This document shows positions 50,846 to 60,189 of a stretch of 64,000 nt of DNA, one piece after another. The notes beneath the pieces were generated by a model that did no database searches, had not been told where the DNA came from, and saw only the letters and a list, made by a program, of their open reading frames with translations. Numbering within the stretch: position 1 is the stretch's first letter; each line of letters begins with the position of its first letter. The stretch lies in NCBI RefSeq assembly GCF_000766945.1, contig NZ_KN266213.1:111370-175369 (forward strand). Reading direction: 5' to 3'. The position numbers were made by a program, and so were the translations under genes. The stretch is from Cellvibrio mixtus subsp. mixtus J3-8 (lineage in GTDB: Bacteria; Pseudomonadota; Gammaproteobacteria; Pseudomonadales; Cellvibrionaceae).

Positions 50846-52012
50846 CTAAACGTCATTATCCAGCGCTACCAGCAACCTGGATAATTCCACCTGGGAGTGG
50901 GTACCGGTTTTTTGCAGGATTATCTTGAGTTGGCTGCGCGCCGTTTCCAGGGTTGTACCGCGCATTTCGGCAATATCGCCAATATTTTTGTTTTTTAACA
51001 GGGCTTTCATAATATTGCATTCAGTGGGTGTCAGCGCGTAGGCCTGCTGCATATAAGCATCCGAAAAATTGCCAGGGCGATCAGGATCACTAACAAATAC
51101 GGCTATCGCAATCCCTTCTTTGCTTAATTCATTCTCTGCCCGGGTATCTACCGGTGTGATGGTCAACCTCAGTGGTTTCGATTGAAAATCGGTCCCGGCA
51201 GCCAGGGAAACTGCTTTCCTGGACTTACGTAATGTGCCTTGCGGTGGCCGGATCAAACGTTGAAATACAGATTGCAGCTGCTGATTCTCTTTATCGCCCG
51301 TCAGGTAGAGTTTTCCCTGCCTGCCGATTTCAAGTACAGCATGTGACTCCAGCACGCGCGCAGCTTCTGCGTTAGAAAAAATAACCCGCAAATTACGGTC
51401 TAATAAAAAAACGCCCTGGTTAATCCGTTTCAATACTTCTTTAATCGCCTGGTTCACCTGCTTGATGCTACTCAAGTGATCATGGATTTTTATTGCCTGT
51501 ACCATATGGGGCGTAATACGCCGCAAGAATTCCTCGGCACTGCTATCCAGGCCAGATGAGCCGGTATGTTTTCTAATACCCAATCCCGAGCAAGTCATGT
51601 TGTCATGCAGCAAAATAATTCCGGCGCAGAATTGCAATTCAGGCATGAAGGTTTCCATGTATTCAGCACCCACCAGATCTTCATAAGTGCCGCCTGTAAC
51701 GCGGAATAAACCTGTCGGTGTAGCCAATTCCCCTTCTTTTAACCGGGATAGTTGTATATGCATCCGCGCTGCTTCCACATCGATAAATTCACGCAAATAC
51801 TTTTCAATAATTCCACCACATGTTTTTGCTGCTACCGCAAAATTCCGCGCCCGGCATTGCGCATTGTAAAAAAACAATGTGCTTTGATGGGCTCCACAAG
51901 CATCGGTAATTGACTGGAGAACATCACTCCATAAGCCAGGGTCCAGTGCGGCTTCATAAATTCGGCTAATGAGTTGGCTTTCGTAATCACCCGGTTCATA
52001 GTGAGACATCAT
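50846..52012 (-). CDS. LuxR-type regulator with PAS-like sensor domain (paralogue B)
   Basis: It is a putative transcription factor of 388 residues. A long N-terminal sensor region (PAS-like at about 215-290, around GVFLLDRNLRVIFSN) is followed by a LuxR-type helix-turn-helix at the end (LTPTECNIMKALLKNKN, TTLETARSQLKIIL). ATG 52012 has AAGGATCGG upstream; a longer frame to 52108 was rejected. It resembles the upstream gene (52065-53270) throughout, so the pair is a tandem duplication. No AHL-synthase gene is visible, so quorum sensing is not supported. Confidence 0.87.
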   Translation of the reverse strand: MMSHYEPGDYESQLISRIYEAALDPGLWSDVLQSITDACGAHQSTLFFYNAQCRARNFAVAAKTCGGIIEKYLREFIDVEAARMHIQLSRLKEGELATPTGLFRVTGGTYEDLVGAEYMETFMPELQFCAGIILLHDNMTCSGLGIRKHTGSSGLDSSAEEFLRRITPHMVQAIKIHDHLSSIKQVNQAIKEVLKRINQGVFLLDRNLRVIFSNAEAARVLESHAVLEIGRQGKLYLTGDKENQQLQSVFQRLIRPPQGTLRKSRKAVSLAAGTDFQSKPLRLTITPVDTRAENELSKEGIAIAVFVSDPDRPGNFSDAYMQQAYALTPTECNIMKALLKNKNIGDIAEMRGTTLETARSQLKIILQKTGTHSQVELSRLLVALDNDV

Positions 52013-52064
52013 CCGATCCTTCCGGCAGGCTAGCGATGAATACATGGTAAGAAAGCGCCGGACC

Positions 52065-53270
52065 TCAATCATCCACCAAATGGGTGGCATGGACAGCCGG
52101 CCGGTCAATTATCAACGATGTATTTGCAACATCATGGCTCAACAACATTAACAAACGAGTCAATTCAGCCTGATTAGCAGTGTTGGTTTTATGCAGAATC
52201 GATTTAAGTTGCCAACGGGCAGTTTCCAATGTTGTTTTTCTTTTTCGTGCAACATCGCCAATGCTATACCCACCCAGTAGCAATTGGACGATGGCCCCTT
52301 CCGTACGGGTAAGCCCGAAAGCCTGCTGCAAATAATCCAAAGGCACTAATCGTTGTCGCTCGGGATCATTTAAAAAAATAGCAATTCGCACTTTATTTGT
52401 ACCTATAACTGCCTGCTTATCCAAAACCACGGCGGTTAGTTTTAGCGGGTGAGCCTTCTCGGGTATCCGTAACGGCATGGTAAATTCACTTGCACAAAGA
52501 CCCTCACCAGCGCAATTTCCCTTTAGCAATTGATGCAAGCGCTCATGAATTTGTTGCCTGCTGTCGTTTATTTCCAATTGATGGTAACGATTGATTTGTA
52601 ACGCAGGATTCTTAGCGAGAATATGTCCGGCCTCTGCGGTGGAATAAACCACTTGCAAATGGCCATCCAGCAGCAATACCCCAAGGTTGGAGCATTTAAG
52701 TGATTCAATCAGTGAAATATTTGTACTTTTAACTGCACTGGATTGATTATAAATATGCAACGCACGCGCAATGTGTGGGGCCAAACGCTGTAAAAATAAC
52801 AACGCCCCGGCCGGCAAAAAATATTGAGCATCTGCAGAATAGAAGCCAAGGGAAGAAGCAATATTGTTGCTATTGATAAGAGGAATAACAGCACTCATCT
52901 TTTCAAAGGTGATTCGGTCTTTATTAACAGAGGAAGTTAAGGAGTACGCGGTTGAGGGGAAATGTTGCGAAAGAATAACGGCACCTTCTTGCCAACCGTT
53001 AAATAACTCTTTGATTTCATTCACGTCCAAATGAGCGGGGTTGAAAAGTGTTACCCCGGCACCGTTTGCGGTGCACTCACCACTGCTGGCAATTTCCATT
53101 AAATTGCGTTCAGGGTAGCTGGGATCAAAAAAAATAAGTTGCCCGCTATCTGCACCTATGTGAACCACTATGGCTTCGATAACTGCTCGCCACTTTTCCG
53201 GAGCCAACGCCGCAGCATAGATATTATGCAGCAACTGGTTTTCTTTTTCGCCCAATTGAAATTCAGTCAT
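52065..53270 (-). CDS. LuxR-type regulator with PAS-like sensor domain (paralogue A)
   Basis: It is a putative transcription factor of 401 residues with the same layout as its neighbour: an N-terminal sensor region, a PAS-like stretch (about 200-270, NLGVLLLDGHLQVVYST) and a C-terminal LuxR-type helix-turn-helix (LTRTEGAIVQLLLGG, TTLETARWQLKSIL). It lies 52 bases upstream of the second copy and probably shares its transcript. ATG 53270 was chosen; a TTG at 53273 precedes it. The ligand and targets are unknown. Confidence 0.87.
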   Translation of the reverse strand: MTEFQLGEKENQLLHNIYAAALAPEKWRAVIEAIVVHIGADSGQLIFFDPSYPERNLMEIASSGECTANGAGVTLFNPAHLDVNEIKELFNGWQEGAVILSQHFPSTAYSLTSSVNKDRITFEKMSAVIPLINSNNIASSLGFYSADAQYFLPAGALLFLQRLAPHIARALHIYNQSSAVKSTNISLIESLKCSNLGVLLLDGHLQVVYSTAEAGHILAKNPALQINRYHQLEINDSRQQIHERLHQLLKGNCAGEGLCASEFTMPLRIPEKAHPLKLTAVVLDKQAVIGTNKVRIAIFLNDPERQRLVPLDYLQQAFGLTRTEGAIVQLLLGGYSIGDVARKRKTTLETARWQLKSILHKTNTANQAELTRLLMLLSHDVANTSLIIDRPAVHATHLVDD

Positions 53271-53585
53271 CAAGCAAACCGTCCGTGCCCTGTTGAAGAA
53301 GCAAGCTACTGGAGATTAATCCAAATAATATGCCAATGCCACCTATATGGGGGATGAGTCGACATATCGTTCCAGCCAGGCTGAAACTGCAATCGTGCAG
53401 CCACACATCCGCCTTATCCTGCCAGGCAGCCGGAAAATTTGCTTGCAAAATACACCGTCGTTTTTATGGCAGGCAGAACAATTCAGCTTGATTATGGCAC
53501 GGGATTTCAAACTTCAAAGTTACACAATTACCGGGAACAATTTCAACTTGAGAAATTAAAGAATTTTTCCAAACTAACCAGTGAG

Positions 53586-56203: not shown

Positions 56204-57226
56204 ATGAAAAAAAATGAAAACAAAATCCGTGTCTTAATTGATACCGATGCTGACTTTGATGATTACATGGCAATGCTGTATTTACTCAAGCATCCCGATA
56301 TAAATGTATGCGGCATCACTGTCACCGGAACGGGTGACGTTCACTTAACTCCCGGAGTAAATAATGTCAGCAATATGCTGACATTATTAAATGACCGCGA
56401 CACGCTAAATATTCCCGTTGCACGCGGCGCAAAAGCCCCTATGATTTACAGCAATACCTTTCCCGGTGATGCCAGGAATGCTGCTGACCTTCATTACGAA
56501 GCGCCCTTTCCCGCACAAAATCCCATCGCGCCACTTGATGATGCGCAAGTATTTTTGCGCGATTATTTTATTAATAGCGATACACCAACAACACTCCTGT
56601 GTATTGGTGGTGGCTCCAATTGGGGGCGCCTGTTCGACACAGCTAAAAGCGATCCGGAATTACGTGCAGCACTGGATAAAAACCTGGAACACATTGTGAT
56701 GATGGGTGGAAACCTGTTGCCGGAATTTGTAACACCCGGTGCAGAAGGCAATATCCAACCCACCCTGCAACCAAATCCTTACTACACCAACAAGGTTGCG
56801 GAATGGAATATTTTTGTGGATGTGCGCGGCGCACAAGAAATTTTTGCCGGCGGCATTCCCATTACCCTCGTCGCCTTAAATGCGACCTCACAAGTTCCTA
56901 TCACTACTGATTTCGTTGCACAGCTCGCAAAAATTAATAACCCCATCGCGAACTTTCTGACTGAAGTGTTGGAGAGCAGCACCATCAAAGGCGGCATCGG
57001 CGCTTACCTGGATTTTTGGGACCCCCTGGCCGCGTGCGTAATTACCAATCCGGAGCTAATCACTACCCAATCATTTTCTATTCGCGTTGAGCAGGAGCTC
57101 GATGAAGAAAACGATAAGTCCGGCATGATCATTGTCGATGAGAAAAATGGTTATTCCGTGAATGTCGCATTAACGGCAAACGCCAATGCGGTGTACAGCA
57201 CATTTCTGGAAGTCATTGCCAGTTAA
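56204..57226 (+). CDS. Nucleoside hydrolase, group-II-like (Trp at the catalytic His position)
   Basis: It is a ribonucleoside hydrolase-family enzyme (340 residues) splitting the N-glycosidic bond. The N-terminal metal site DTDADFDDY matches the family DxDxxxDD motif. VMMGGN, EWNIFVDVRGAQEIF and FWDPLAA follow. The residue before the C-terminal metal Asp273 is Trp272, where pyrimidine-preferring enzymes have His; Trp is typical of the purine-specific group. There is no signal peptide. ATG 56204 has AAGGA upstream. It is followed 66 bases later by two exported haem-motif proteins, which is unusual. Substrate specificity is inferred. Confidence 0.88.
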   Translation: MKKNENKIRVLIDTDADFDDYMAMLYLLKHPDINVCGITVTGTGDVHLTPGVNNVSNMLTLLNDRDTLNIPVARGAKAPMIYSNTFPGDARNAADLHYEAPFPAQNPIAPLDDAQVFLRDYFINSDTPTTLLCIGGGSNWGRLFDTAKSDPELRAALDKNLEHIVMMGGNLLPEFVTPGAEGNIQPTLQPNPYYTNKVAEWNIFVDVRGAQEIFAGGIPITLVALNATSQVPITTDFVAQLAKINNPIANFLTEVLESSTIKGGIGAYLDFWDPLAACVITNPELITTQSFSIRVEQELDEENDKSGMIIVDEKNGYSVNVALTANANAVYSTFLEVIAS

Positions 57227-57292
57227 ACAACGCCGTACGTCACCCTATTTATATTTCAATTTTATATTTTTCTATCTATTCAGGATCTTGTT

Positions 57293-58657
57293 ATGAAACG
57301 AGCACTCTTTGCTATTGCCTGCAGTATTGCAGCCGGTAGCGCACTTGCAGAAAGCGCTAAAAACGAAGCTTATCGCAACGCCGCTGTTCCGGCGCCAGCG
57401 AGCTGGCAAGGGCCAACATTTAAATTAAGCCACGATTATCCACAAAAAAAACCGCAACCTTGCAGCGTTGCTGAATGTCCCTGGTTGGGAATTCCATTGC
57501 CAACCAAAACCAATTTCACTGATGCCGGCATTCCCGTTTGGAAAGAAGGTGGCGTTTACGATAATTACATCCAATCCATTCTCGATTACGTAAAAAAAGG
57601 CCAGACCCTGGATTTAAATAACCAGGAGGGTTTTAAAGTCGATGTGAATGGAAAAACCGAATGGTTCCATATTCCGTGGATGGCATTTGATAAACACACC
57701 GGGCGCGAATTTGTTCATGGTCTAACAAATGAACGTACCGCTGTTATCAGCGATTTTTATGGCGAAGAACGATTGGGTTTACATTCACTCATCGGTGCCA
57801 CACCCGGTAACGAACAAGGTTTTGAAACCTGGGCTGTCGGTATGTACAACCGTTATGGCGGCTACACCATTGGCCAAAGCTGGAGTAAAAAAGGCACACC
57901 CAATATTGAAACTATTAACGGTGTTAAAGCCACAAAAGGCATGCCGTTTATGCAAGGCACCGTAGTCGTTAAATTTTTATTTACTACCGCTACACCGGAA
58001 GAAGTTTCTTATTTAAAAGGCAGCCCGGAATGGCAAGCCGATCGCCATGTTGAGGTGGATAATAAATTCCAATGCAAACGTGAAGTGCAAACTGTTCGTC
58101 TCGTGCAAGTCGATGTAGCAGTTGTTGATGAACGTTCTCCAAGCCGATGGGTTTACGGCACCTTTGCCTATCTCGACGGCAAAGGAAAAACTGTGTGGGA
58201 CAATTTAAAACCTGTAGGTTTGCAATGGGGCATGGATTCCTGGACATTCCCTGCCGTACCTAAAGCAGAATCAATTCCTGCGCGTCAAAGTGTGTTGAAT
58301 AAATCCATCAGCGCGTTTGAACATTACGGTTGCAACGGTCGCCTTGCGGGCCCGGTTGATAACAAACTCAGTTCATGCCTCTCTTGCCACGGTGGGGCTT
58401 TTGCCAATACCGCCGGTTATACCTTCTCTGAAGGAACTTACGGTCCACCTGTATTTGGGTTTGAAGGGTTATGCACACAGTACAGCCAGGACAACGCAGA
58501 ATATTTCCAAACCATTCAATTCCCGCAAGCGTATACCGGCGGTAATTATCCGGATGCGATGAATATGGATACCTCACTGCAAATGCAAATTGCGATGCAG
58601 GAATGGGCGTTGTTTAAACAAAAAGGCACCGCTGCTGCAGCCTGTGAGGTTAACTAA
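57293..58657 (+). CDS. Exported monohaem-motif (CxxCH) protein, family unknown
   Basis: It is a periplasmic protein of 454 residues. A signal peptide (ending GSALAE) precedes a body with no domain I can name. A single class c haem-binding motif, CLSCH, sits at residues 362-366. The conserved-looking parts include FHIPWMAFD, GREFVHGLTNERTAV and a Trp/Pro-rich centre. It has several other cysteines that could form disulfides. The stop overlaps the next ATG by one base (TAATG). It could be an electron-transfer partner or a sensor; I cannot assign a reaction. Confidence 0.75.
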   Translation: MKRALFAIACSIAAGSALAESAKNEAYRNAAVPAPASWQGPTFKLSHDYPQKKPQPCSVAECPWLGIPLPTKTNFTDAGIPVWKEGGVYDNYIQSILDYVKKGQTLDLNNQEGFKVDVNGKTEWFHIPWMAFDKHTGREFVHGLTNERTAVISDFYGEERLGLHSLIGATPGNEQGFETWAVGMYNRYGGYTIGQSWSKKGTPNIETINGVKATKGMPFMQGTVVVKFLFTTATPEEVSYLKGSPEWQADRHVEVDNKFQCKREVQTVRLVQVDVAVVDERSPSRWVYGTFAYLDGKGKTVWDNLKPVGLQWGMDSWTFPAVPKAESIPARQSVLNKSISAFEHYGCNGRLAGPVDNKLSSCLSCHGGAFANTAGYTFSEGTYGPPVFGFEGLCTQYSQDNAEYFQTIQFPQAYTGGNYPDAMNMDTSLQMQIAMQEWALFKQKGTAAAACEVN

Positions 58658-60129
58658 TGAAAAAATTAATTCTTGCTTCCTGTTTATGCGCGGCAACCAG
58701 TTCCATCTTATTTGCAACAACAAGCTCCGCCGTATTTGCCGCCGACAATTTATATAAAGACCTTAAACCAGTCGTTAGTGGCCAGCATTTGAATGAAGTT
58801 CCGGCGCAGCCTTTTGCTGCGTCAGGCGTGGTAAAGCGCCCCTACTTTGATTATTTCAATTGGCAAAACTTTATCGCGTTGATGTGGCCCAGCAAGGTGG
58901 ATTCACACGGTGTGCCTTATTTGCCCCACGATAAAAATGTGTTTGGCAAATACAGTTCAGACCTGCAACCGGTTTGGTTGGGTTGGAAATCGGCATTTGA
59001 TTTATTTCCGCAAAACGGTACCAAGCCTATCGCGTGGGAAAAAAATAATGGCACAGCGGTTTGCCGCAATATAAAACCCGGTGATAAACGCGCGGTGTTA
59101 ATTAGCGGCTCACAATTCACGTCTGTTGCGGATGAACTTGATCAAGCCTTTGGCGGCCCATTGCCAGATCAAACCGGGATCTTCACACGCTATGAAGTAC
59201 GTATGAATAAAGTGGAATACGATTACGTACGTAATAACGGCTATTACAACAAAAGTAATTGGCCAAGCGACGGCGTCAATTTTCCTGCCGGAAATGGTAA
59301 AGACGTTACCGGCGTTATTGAGGTGAAGGCGGCCTGGCGCGATTTGCGTAAAGTCGATCCCAAATTCCACCATCGTTTTTTCACGCTGGACAATGTGTTG
59401 GTATCCATTCCGGAAACCTGTAGCGATAAACCCAACAGCATGATTGTGTGCGATTGTGAAGCGACCAAAGTGGGCCTGGTCGGTTTCCACATCGCGCAAA
59501 AAACACCGGATTTTCCACAGTGGGTTTGGTCTACCTTTGAGCAAGTGGATAATTTGGGAGAAGATCCGAGCACACCAAAAGATATGCAGCCTTCGTATTA
59601 CGATCCGGAGCTTTATAAAAAATATCCTAACGTATTACGTGCAAACCCGGCAGCGCATCCGGGGTCAAACCGTGTTCCTGATTCGGGTGATTTCAATCCT
59701 GAGCCAATTAATGTGGTGCGCCTGAGTCAAATTCCCGATACACCAAAACCGGCAACGGGCGAAACCGATTATTCAACCACCGGGATGAATAAAATGTATC
59801 GCGAAATGTTGAAAGGAACTGTATGGGAGCATTACCAATTGATTGGTAGCCAGTGGCCACAATTACCATCCATTTCCGCCAAAACCCCCACAGACAATGA
59901 TTTTGGTTGTGAGGATGGTACCGAGGTACAAGCGGGTGGTATGCCATTTCCACAATGCCAGCTGGCAAATATCACTATGGAAACGTATCACCAATACGAT
60001 AGTTGTATGAATTGCCATCAAGGTGCGCAACGCGCCGGTGCGGATTTTAGCTGGATTCTCGCCGCACGCGCCTTTCAAGCAACACCGAAGGTTGCACCAT
60101 TGACCGTTCCAAAGGAAAACAAAAAATAA
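58657..60129 (+). CDS. Exported monohaem-motif (CxxCH) protein, second of the pair
   Basis: It is a periplasmic protein of 490 residues. A signal peptide (residues 1-29, ending AVFAA) is followed by a large body with FDYFNWQNFIALMWPSK near the start. A single haem motif, CMNCH, is at residues 450-454 close to the C terminus. It shows no clear overall sequence match to the preceding protein, but the size and motif position are similar. It has GAGG upstream of its ATG within the previous gene and shares its stop by one base, so the two are translationally coupled. Function is unknown. Confidence 0.75.
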   Translation: MKKLILASCLCAATSSILFATTSSAVFAADNLYKDLKPVVSGQHLNEVPAQPFAASGVVKRPYFDYFNWQNFIALMWPSKVDSHGVPYLPHDKNVFGKYSSDLQPVWLGWKSAFDLFPQNGTKPIAWEKNNGTAVCRNIKPGDKRAVLISGSQFTSVADELDQAFGGPLPDQTGIFTRYEVRMNKVEYDYVRNNGYYNKSNWPSDGVNFPAGNGKDVTGVIEVKAAWRDLRKVDPKFHHRFFTLDNVLVSIPETCSDKPNSMIVCDCEATKVGLVGFHIAQKTPDFPQWVWSTFEQVDNLGEDPSTPKDMQPSYYDPELYKKYPNVLRANPAAHPGSNRVPDSGDFNPEPINVVRLSQIPDTPKPATGETDYSTTGMNKMYREMLKGTVWEHYQLIGSQWPQLPSISAKTPTDNDFGCEDGTEVQAGGMPFPQCQLANITMETYHQYDSCMNCHQGAQRAGADFSWILAARAFQATPKVAPLTVPKENKK

Positions 60130-60148
60130 ATTGGGATGTATGCAAATA

Positions 60149-60176
60149 AAAACTGCCGCAATTGCGGCAGTTTTTA
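60149..60176 (+). terminator. Rho-independent terminator after the haem-protein pair
   Basis: A perfect palindromic stem, AAAACTGCCGC / GCGGCAGTTTT with loop AATT, followed by T. It also serves the convergent gene. Confidence 0.9.
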
Positions 60177-60189
60177 TTCCAGCAGAAAA

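Follow-up and report, generated by a model that had tools for sequence, protein, structure and literature searches.

A probable cytochrome P460 relative of unusual size encoded beside a nucleoside hydrolase in Cellvibrio mixtus

Cytochromes P460 and c'-beta belong to one superfamily of haem proteins with a common fold, a five-stranded antiparallel sheet, and a C-terminal CxxCH haem-attachment motif; the c'-beta proteins are small. According to the available part of a published account (PMC11928373), the P460 proteins whose enzymology has been studied are those of ammonia and methane oxidisers; in McP460, Lys78 forms the cross-link to haem and Asp102 supplies the distal carboxylate that hydroxylamine oxidation requires. 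The same partial text lists three c'-beta proteins (Table 2) that have neither the cross-linking Lys nor the carboxylate, and refers to superfamily members with a proposed gas-binding role. As for nucleoside hydrolases, their physiological role in bacteria is called unclear in most organisms (available part of PMC10526354), and the purine-specific group II enzymes have two signature Trp, one directly before the last metal Asp (available part of PMC8910321). The subject of this analysis is a three-gene unit in Cellvibrio mixtus subsp. mixtus J3-8 in which a nucleoside hydrolase (NH) gene is followed by genes for two large exported haem proteins, here called P1 and P2. It lies in a window of 64,000 nucleotides (the whole stretch of DNA that was analysed; contig NZ_KN266213.1, positions 111,370 to 175,369). 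P1 very probably belongs to the cytochrome P460/c'-beta superfamily, on the strength of profile comparison and, weakly, of an AlphaFold model. The unit consists of the following features (window coordinates):

56204-57226, forward strand: NH, an open reading frame (ORF) of 340 residues, PF01156, no signal peptide by eye
57293-58657, forward strand: P1, exported P460-like haem protein, ORF of 454 residues
57293-57349, forward strand: signal peptide of P1, cleavage after ALA (by eye)
57971-57973, forward strand: P1 Lys227, corresponding by alignment to the Lys that cross-links haem in P460 (McP460 Lys78)
58112-58114, forward strand: P1 Asp274, counterpart of the P460 distal carboxylate (McP460 Asp102), by alignment
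58376-58390, forward strand: CxxCH haem-attachment motif of P1, residues 362-366
58657-60129, forward strand: P2, second exported haem protein and P1 homologue, ORF of 490 residues
58657-58743, forward strand: signal peptide of P2, cleavage after VFA (by eye)
59326-59328, forward strand: P2 Lys224, at the place of the cross-linking Lys (placed through P1)
59488-59490, forward strand: P2 His278, at the distal-carboxylate place (placed via the P1 alignment by eye)
60004-60018, forward strand: CxxCH haem-attachment motif of P2, residues 450-454
about 60145-60178, forward strand: terminator-like hairpin, palindrome plus T run (by folding; similar palindromes in relatives)

The three genes are arranged as the original prediction had them, with 66 bases between NH and P1, a one-base overlap of P1 and P2 within TAATG, and a single CxxCH in each haem protein. 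The terminator that it placed at the end of the unit is a strong hairpin (-24.5 kcal/mol, z -5.1); a simple terminator scan of the window did not list it, probably because the T run belongs to the stem, and palindromes resembling it were seen after P1 in two relatives. That the two CxxCH proteins are exported, as had also been proposed, fits with the N-terminal Sec-type signal peptides seen by eye on both, with the retention of the motif, and with CcmF (c-type haem attachment) being encoded in the same genome. We infer that NH, P1 and P2 share one transcript and that P1 and P2 attach haem through CxxCH.

Neither P1 nor P2 has a Pfam or NCBIfam match above cut-off, PF16694 (cytochrome P460) included, and direct sequence searches of the PDB with both gave no match at E up to 10. 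P460 was first suspected because of the motif around the C-terminal CxxCH and because of weak PF16694 matches (E 0.03-0.4) in three of ten P2-type paralogs. The comparison that carries the assignment is between profiles: a P460 profile of 29 sequences (out of 30 loci) matches the 60-row P1 profile at 70.9% (E 3.8e-5, 81 columns), and at 77.1% when P1 is cut before CxxCH, so that the match persists without the motif. As background, 44 unrelated alignments from P1 neighbourhoods do not exceed 1.7% with the P460 profile and 1.5% with that of P1. The aligned part pairs FPxGTVVxK of P1 with PWPDGTILAK of P460, and VQVDVAVVD...WVYGTF with VHAEFMIKD...GGWGFARW. The AlphaFold model of P1, made from 60 sequences (predicted local distance difference test, pLDDT, 88.2; predicted template-modelling score, pTM, 0.91), is rich in beta strands, and its order of elements (strand-helix-strand-long strand-strand-haem helix) agrees with the profile alignment. 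Set against 350,542 PDB chains, it gave 14 best matches of which 13 are P460 (template-modelling score by target 0.25-0.34), all 13 being forms of one Nitrosomonas protein.

Compared with the P460 proteins of Methylococcus capsulatus (6hiu) and Nitrosomonas (2je3, 6amg), P1 and P2 have in common the FPxG-xxK and VKD...GWG strands, the CxxCH after the sheet and the cross-link Lys, and P1 also shares the distal carboxylate. They differ in length (454-490 residues, whereas solved P460/c'-beta chains have 135-196), in an extra N-terminal part of about 120 residues and in insertions, in the roughly 90 residues of P1 past CxxCH, and in standing in an operon with NH and without a PF16694 match. P1 and P2 would be a known kind of haem protein in variant form, in an operon context that is new, and what had been noted simply as two haem proteins can be narrowed by sequence to giant P460 relatives rather than class I cytochromes c.

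The residues that matter most in P460 are also in place. Counted along the chain, Lys78 of McP460 is the K of ILVK and Asp102 the D of TQADF; P1 Lys227 aligns with the former and is kept in 60 of 60 rows, and P1 Asp274 aligns with the latter and is kept as Asp in 59. Both positions lie outside the search seed. P1 keeps the two residues that the three listed c'-beta proteins lack. Six further polar positions are invariant in the same 60 rows (Tyr92, Glu139, Gln272, Arg350, Asp356 and Asp426). In P2-type proteins the place of the cross-link is Lys and that of the carboxylate His, each in 34 of 34 rows (an alignment that omits rows of 300 residues or fewer or scoring as P1, and holds a few duplicate rows of one genome). 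Conservation of CxxCH, which had been put forward as a check, holds in all 34 of these rows, for which the motif was not the search seed; in the P1 set it is there by construction, because the motif was the seed, and six P1 relatives from other genera that were found without that seed carry it too. Cross-linking of haem by P1 Lys227 has about an even chance, and P460-like catalysis by P1 may be rated a shade lower.

NH is a member of PF01156 (Pfam scan, E 2.3e-43) with Asp13, Asp19, Asp20 and Asp273 all present in the alignment, which we take to be the metal site. Trp occupies position 272 in 14 of 14 aligned rows (rows longer than 250 residues; repeats L014-L016 left out), and the next residue is Asp in 13. 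NH thus resembles the group II (IAG, inosine-adenosine-guanosine) enzymes in its family and in the Trp immediately preceding the last metal Asp, and differs from them in that no Trp was found in the beta3-alpha3 loop (residues 71-112), where the second signature Trp would be expected. The label "group-II-like" therefore holds for Trp272 but not for the second Trp, and because of that missing Trp the window NH is better called a hybrid: its Arg91 pairs with a group I His in the alignment to the PDB match, and its best PDB scores are with RihA-type enzymes. A preference for purine nucleosides is predicted, with somewhat better than even confidence.

The pairing of NH with P1 was followed first in the genus, where 5 of 21 genomes (that of the window included) carry P1 and the same five a close NH (at least 75% identity). 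A distant NH (31-33%) occurs alone in five further genomes and additionally in one of the P1-bearing five; of the P1-bearing genomes, G011 (assembled in 670 contigs) has an NH interrupted by stops. Close P2 (at least 85%) accompanies P1 in three of the five. In two close relatives (L049, L050) the convergent gene known from the window comes 81 and 70 bases after P1, with a similar palindrome, so that P2 is cleanly absent there; NH-P1 is therefore the core of the unit and P2 optional. Within the class, the P1 profile finds relatives in 7 of 369 genomes, again with the window's own included. A single scan of a species-genome collection, the window's own genome excluded, turned up 118 relatives, and 80 loci were retained for analysis; since the seed was the CxxCH region, the scan could find only P1-type loci with that motif, and a simple gene caller called P1 in 79 of the 80 (L066 was missed). 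NH stands directly upstream of P1 on the same strand in 13 of the 80 (L049-L053, L062-L065, L083, L098, L103 and L106; three are the genus genomes again), in one of them split into three pieces. Nine of these are among the 17 loci whose P1 is closest (L049-L065, at least 48%), and four belong to the other 63. A wider NH profile detected no NH elsewhere in the 80 loci: all 13 are directly upstream of P1.

A quick tree built from 59 of the 80 loci together with the window's P1 (L050 and L064 not among them) places the 12 NH-bearing rows in two clades, each with 100 in the Shimodaira-Hasegawa-like approximate likelihood-ratio test (SH-aLRT) and with long branches between, and the fewest changes of the NH trait on it number four (4 rows with unclear upstream omitted); the details of this tree are unsure because long branches meet. 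The pairing spans two phyla, Pseudomonadota and Acidobacteriota. The P1 hosts include Cellvibrio, Ferrimonas, Vibrio maritimus, Pokkaliibacter, Undibacterium, Curvibacter, Pseudoalteromonas, a metagenome-assembled genome of Rhizobiales, Sphingomonas and an acidobacterium. Seven of the 80 loci have P2 beside P1 in the same orientation, with both gene orders represented. The three-gene unit of the window is one branch of a wider family.

Other genes stand beside P1 in some loci (with family labels from Pfam scans of a part of them). A gene of PF01048 (phosphorylase superfamily) adjoins P1 in two genomes without NH, upstream in L040 and downstream in L060, where the score equals the cut-off; the L040 protein has 12 weak PDB matches, all of them methylthioadenosine/S-adenosylhomocysteine nucleosidases (best E 0.007). 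Although the matches are weak, this looks like the replacement of NH by another nucleoside-cleaving fold. Six of the 80 loci, three of them NH-bearing, have a multicopper oxidase gene directly behind P1 (Pfam-checked in L056 and L062), and the oxidase has an evident twin-arginine start by eye in L056 and L063. In L062, L063 and L065 this makes a three-gene operon of NH, P1 and multicopper oxidase in which the NH metal site is altered: the first metal-site Asp is Ile or Val, the Trp is kept, and in L065 the last Asp is Asn. The idea that the same active NH serves these multicopper-oxidase operons was dropped for the three because of the replaced first Asp.

P1 and P2 are homologous by profile (88.6%, 92.8% and 90.4%). 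A match of P2 to DUF3716 (E 0.01) was taken as chance, being below cut-off and around CxxCH only, and a search of viral contigs with the P2 profile gave 37 pattern matches and no relative. Nineteen P2-type loci away from P1 were inspected, 16 from the genus and order and 3 from the class (in L201 the P2 was not called), their neighbours being labelled by similarity to Pfam-scanned genes. Five combine P2 with a small gene and a GMC oxidoreductase (L018-L021, L199), six have a LodA-type oxidase (L024-L028, L032; a LodB-like gene in five), two adjoin an unnamed protein of about 590 residues, and six have none of these partners. Three-subunit flavin dehydrogenases are built of a GMC subunit, a small subunit and a cytochrome subunit. 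The five GMC loci have the corresponding set of genes and differ in that the haem protein is P2-type and that neither of the two small genes scanned matches a Pfam family. The arrangements suggest that, beside GMC and LodA proteins, P2-type proteins form part of quinohaemo- or flavohaemo-protein dehydrogenases rather than of plain oxidases. A mannan-binding lectin domain (PF12151) is present at the C terminus of three P2-type proteins of the genus (L029, L031 and L033, of which L031 is in the window's own genome).

That NH and P1 constitute a functional module is held with fair confidence; the fuller interpretation, in which the module has two parts, a cytoplasmic NH and a periplasmic, giant P460-type P1, is given about an equal chance of being right or wrong. 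NH would cleave nucleosides, probably purine nucleosides, in the cytoplasm. P1 would be an oversized P460 in the periplasm, with one c-type haem held by CxxCH beside a beta sheet, Lys227 positioned to cross-link the haem edge and Asp274 positioned to relay protons, and would act as a redox enzyme that passes its electrons on. Its substrate is only doubtfully assigned to a class, that of small nitrogenous molecules, for which hydroxylamine- or NO-like compounds or a reactive product of base breakdown are candidates. P2, with His for the carboxylate, could be a companion haem protein for electron transfer or ligand binding, and in related operons the multicopper oxidase beside P1 could hand electrons to oxygen. 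Base transport or a common stress might connect NH and P1 in one pathway across compartments.

Several observations weigh against this interpretation. P1 has roughly three times the length of P460, and its fold match is not significant by itself (E 0.26 upward). CxxCH alone inflates profile scores: the ordinary cytochrome c control scores 55.9% with P460 on 11 columns, hence the importance of the test with P1 cut before CxxCH. P460 matches P2 directly only weakly (10.7% and 32.5%), and the P2 model, from 8 sequences, is poor (pLDDT 41) and was not used for a fold search; because it failed, P2 is assigned to the superfamily through its homology to P1. Of the 79 loci with a called P1, 66 showed no NH upstream (among the 66, L061 lacks upstream DNA altogether, and L070 and L127 offer less than 1 kb of it), which limits NH-P1 coupling to some branches and counts against the original prediction by the test that it had itself set. 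The NH proteins of L062, L063 and L065 may no longer be nucleosidases, but non-canonical or inactive, because a metal-site Asp is replaced. Eleven of the 19 P2-type loci away from P1 adjoin GMC or LodA oxidoreductases. Finally, NH being cytoplasmic and P1 exported, a direct hand-over of substrate from the one to the other is impossible without transport. The proposed coupling of nucleoside cleavage to exported haem proteins is supported for NH and P1 in two clades, but not for the NH-less majority of P1 loci or for the P2-type loci with GMC or LodA partners.

These observations also feed the alternatives. The one to be taken most seriously, possible although we think it improbable on balance, is that P1 and P2 are non-catalytic periplasmic electron carriers for dehydrogenases or oxidases and that NH is merely co-regulated with them. 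The P2-type genes beside GMC (5 of 19 loci, with the small gene) and LodA-type oxidases (6 of 19) are its main support, the arrangement resembling that of flavin or quinone dehydrogenases in which one subunit is a cytochrome, and the multicopper oxidase that follows P1 in six loci points the same way; P1, however, has more invariant polar residues than an electron carrier would be expected to keep, and the three-gene unit of the window contains no redox enzyme besides P1 and P2. Binding of a gas or another ligand (NO, CO, a nucleobase), in the manner of cytochrome c'-beta and for scavenging or sensing, is an unlikely role for the pair: the superfamily's proposed gas binders provide a precedent, and P2, with Lys but His for the carboxylate, fits it better, whereas P1 keeps both of the residues missing from the three c'-beta proteins in Table 2 of PMC11928373 (available part).

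Still less probable is that NH is a chance or lineage-specific neighbour with no functional link to P1. The many P1 loci without NH and the different compartments of the two proteins are what one would expect in that case, but not the confinement of NH to the position directly upstream of P1 in 13 of 13 instances, in two far-separated clades and two phyla, nor the different nucleosidase-type family that adjoins P1 in two further genomes. The reading of P1 and P2 as large proteins holding ordinary class I cytochrome c domains has very little to recommend it beyond the single CxxCH in each, and was rejected: the control profile built from PF13442 loci covers the 11 CxxCH columns only, at 8.2% for P1 and 16.5% for P2, and the P1 model is rich in beta strands.

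Further genes were seen around P1. A cysteine-dioxygenase-like cupin follows P2 in L052 (Ferrimonas) and is fused to P2 in the gene model of L064 (Vibrio maritimus). Ten neighbouring genes that were scanned looked mostly like ordinary flanking genes (glutamine synthetase, S10 peptidase, MscS, G6PD, a phosphoesterase, DUF2278, MipA, Bax1-I, ivWA and one without a match). The phosphoesterase gene lies directly after P1, with PF04185 in L102 and cluster mates in L100 and L101, and the P1-phosphoesterase rows come from two separate P1 clades (L102 itself is outside the tree). In L043 and L115 a P1-type gene is preceded, at a distance of 13 bases, by the gene for a DNase II homologue (PF03265), and in L043 both proteins have lipoprotein-like starts by eye. 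Upstream of NH-P1 in L083, L098 and L103 (Undibacterium, Curvibacter) is a gene for a protein of about 200 residues, which in L083 has no Pfam match and a signal-peptide-like start. Elsewhere in the window, at 50846-53273 on the reverse strand, are two adjoining genes for proteins of about 400 residues with ends that look alike by eye, one of them with a weak LuxR-type (GerE) match.

The original prediction knew of no described system of this kind. In the literature searched, with most subscription journals outside its coverage, there is likewise no description of an operon joining NH to a giant P460-like haem protein, and no paper treats cytochrome P460 together with nucleoside hydrolase. P460 and a nucleosidase do co-occur, with a single mention each in the available part of the text, in a genome paper on a vent bacterium.

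What these findings suggest is that a P460-type haem site with its cross-link Lys exists in large exported proteins of several phyla, and that one branch of P1 travels with nucleosidases. Tentatively, P1 may represent a widespread and undescribed group of giant, Lys-cross-linked P460 enzymes outside nitrification, one branch of which would form with nucleosidases a dedicated pathway that applies P460-type haem chemistry to a nucleobase-derived or N-hydroxylated compound, P2-type proteins being this invention put to use by GMC and LodA oxidases. P1 and P2 lend themselves to testing, since they have signal peptides and look soluble, and the unit would thus offer a handle both on the role of P460-type haem outside nitrification and on the purpose of bacterial nucleoside hydrolases.

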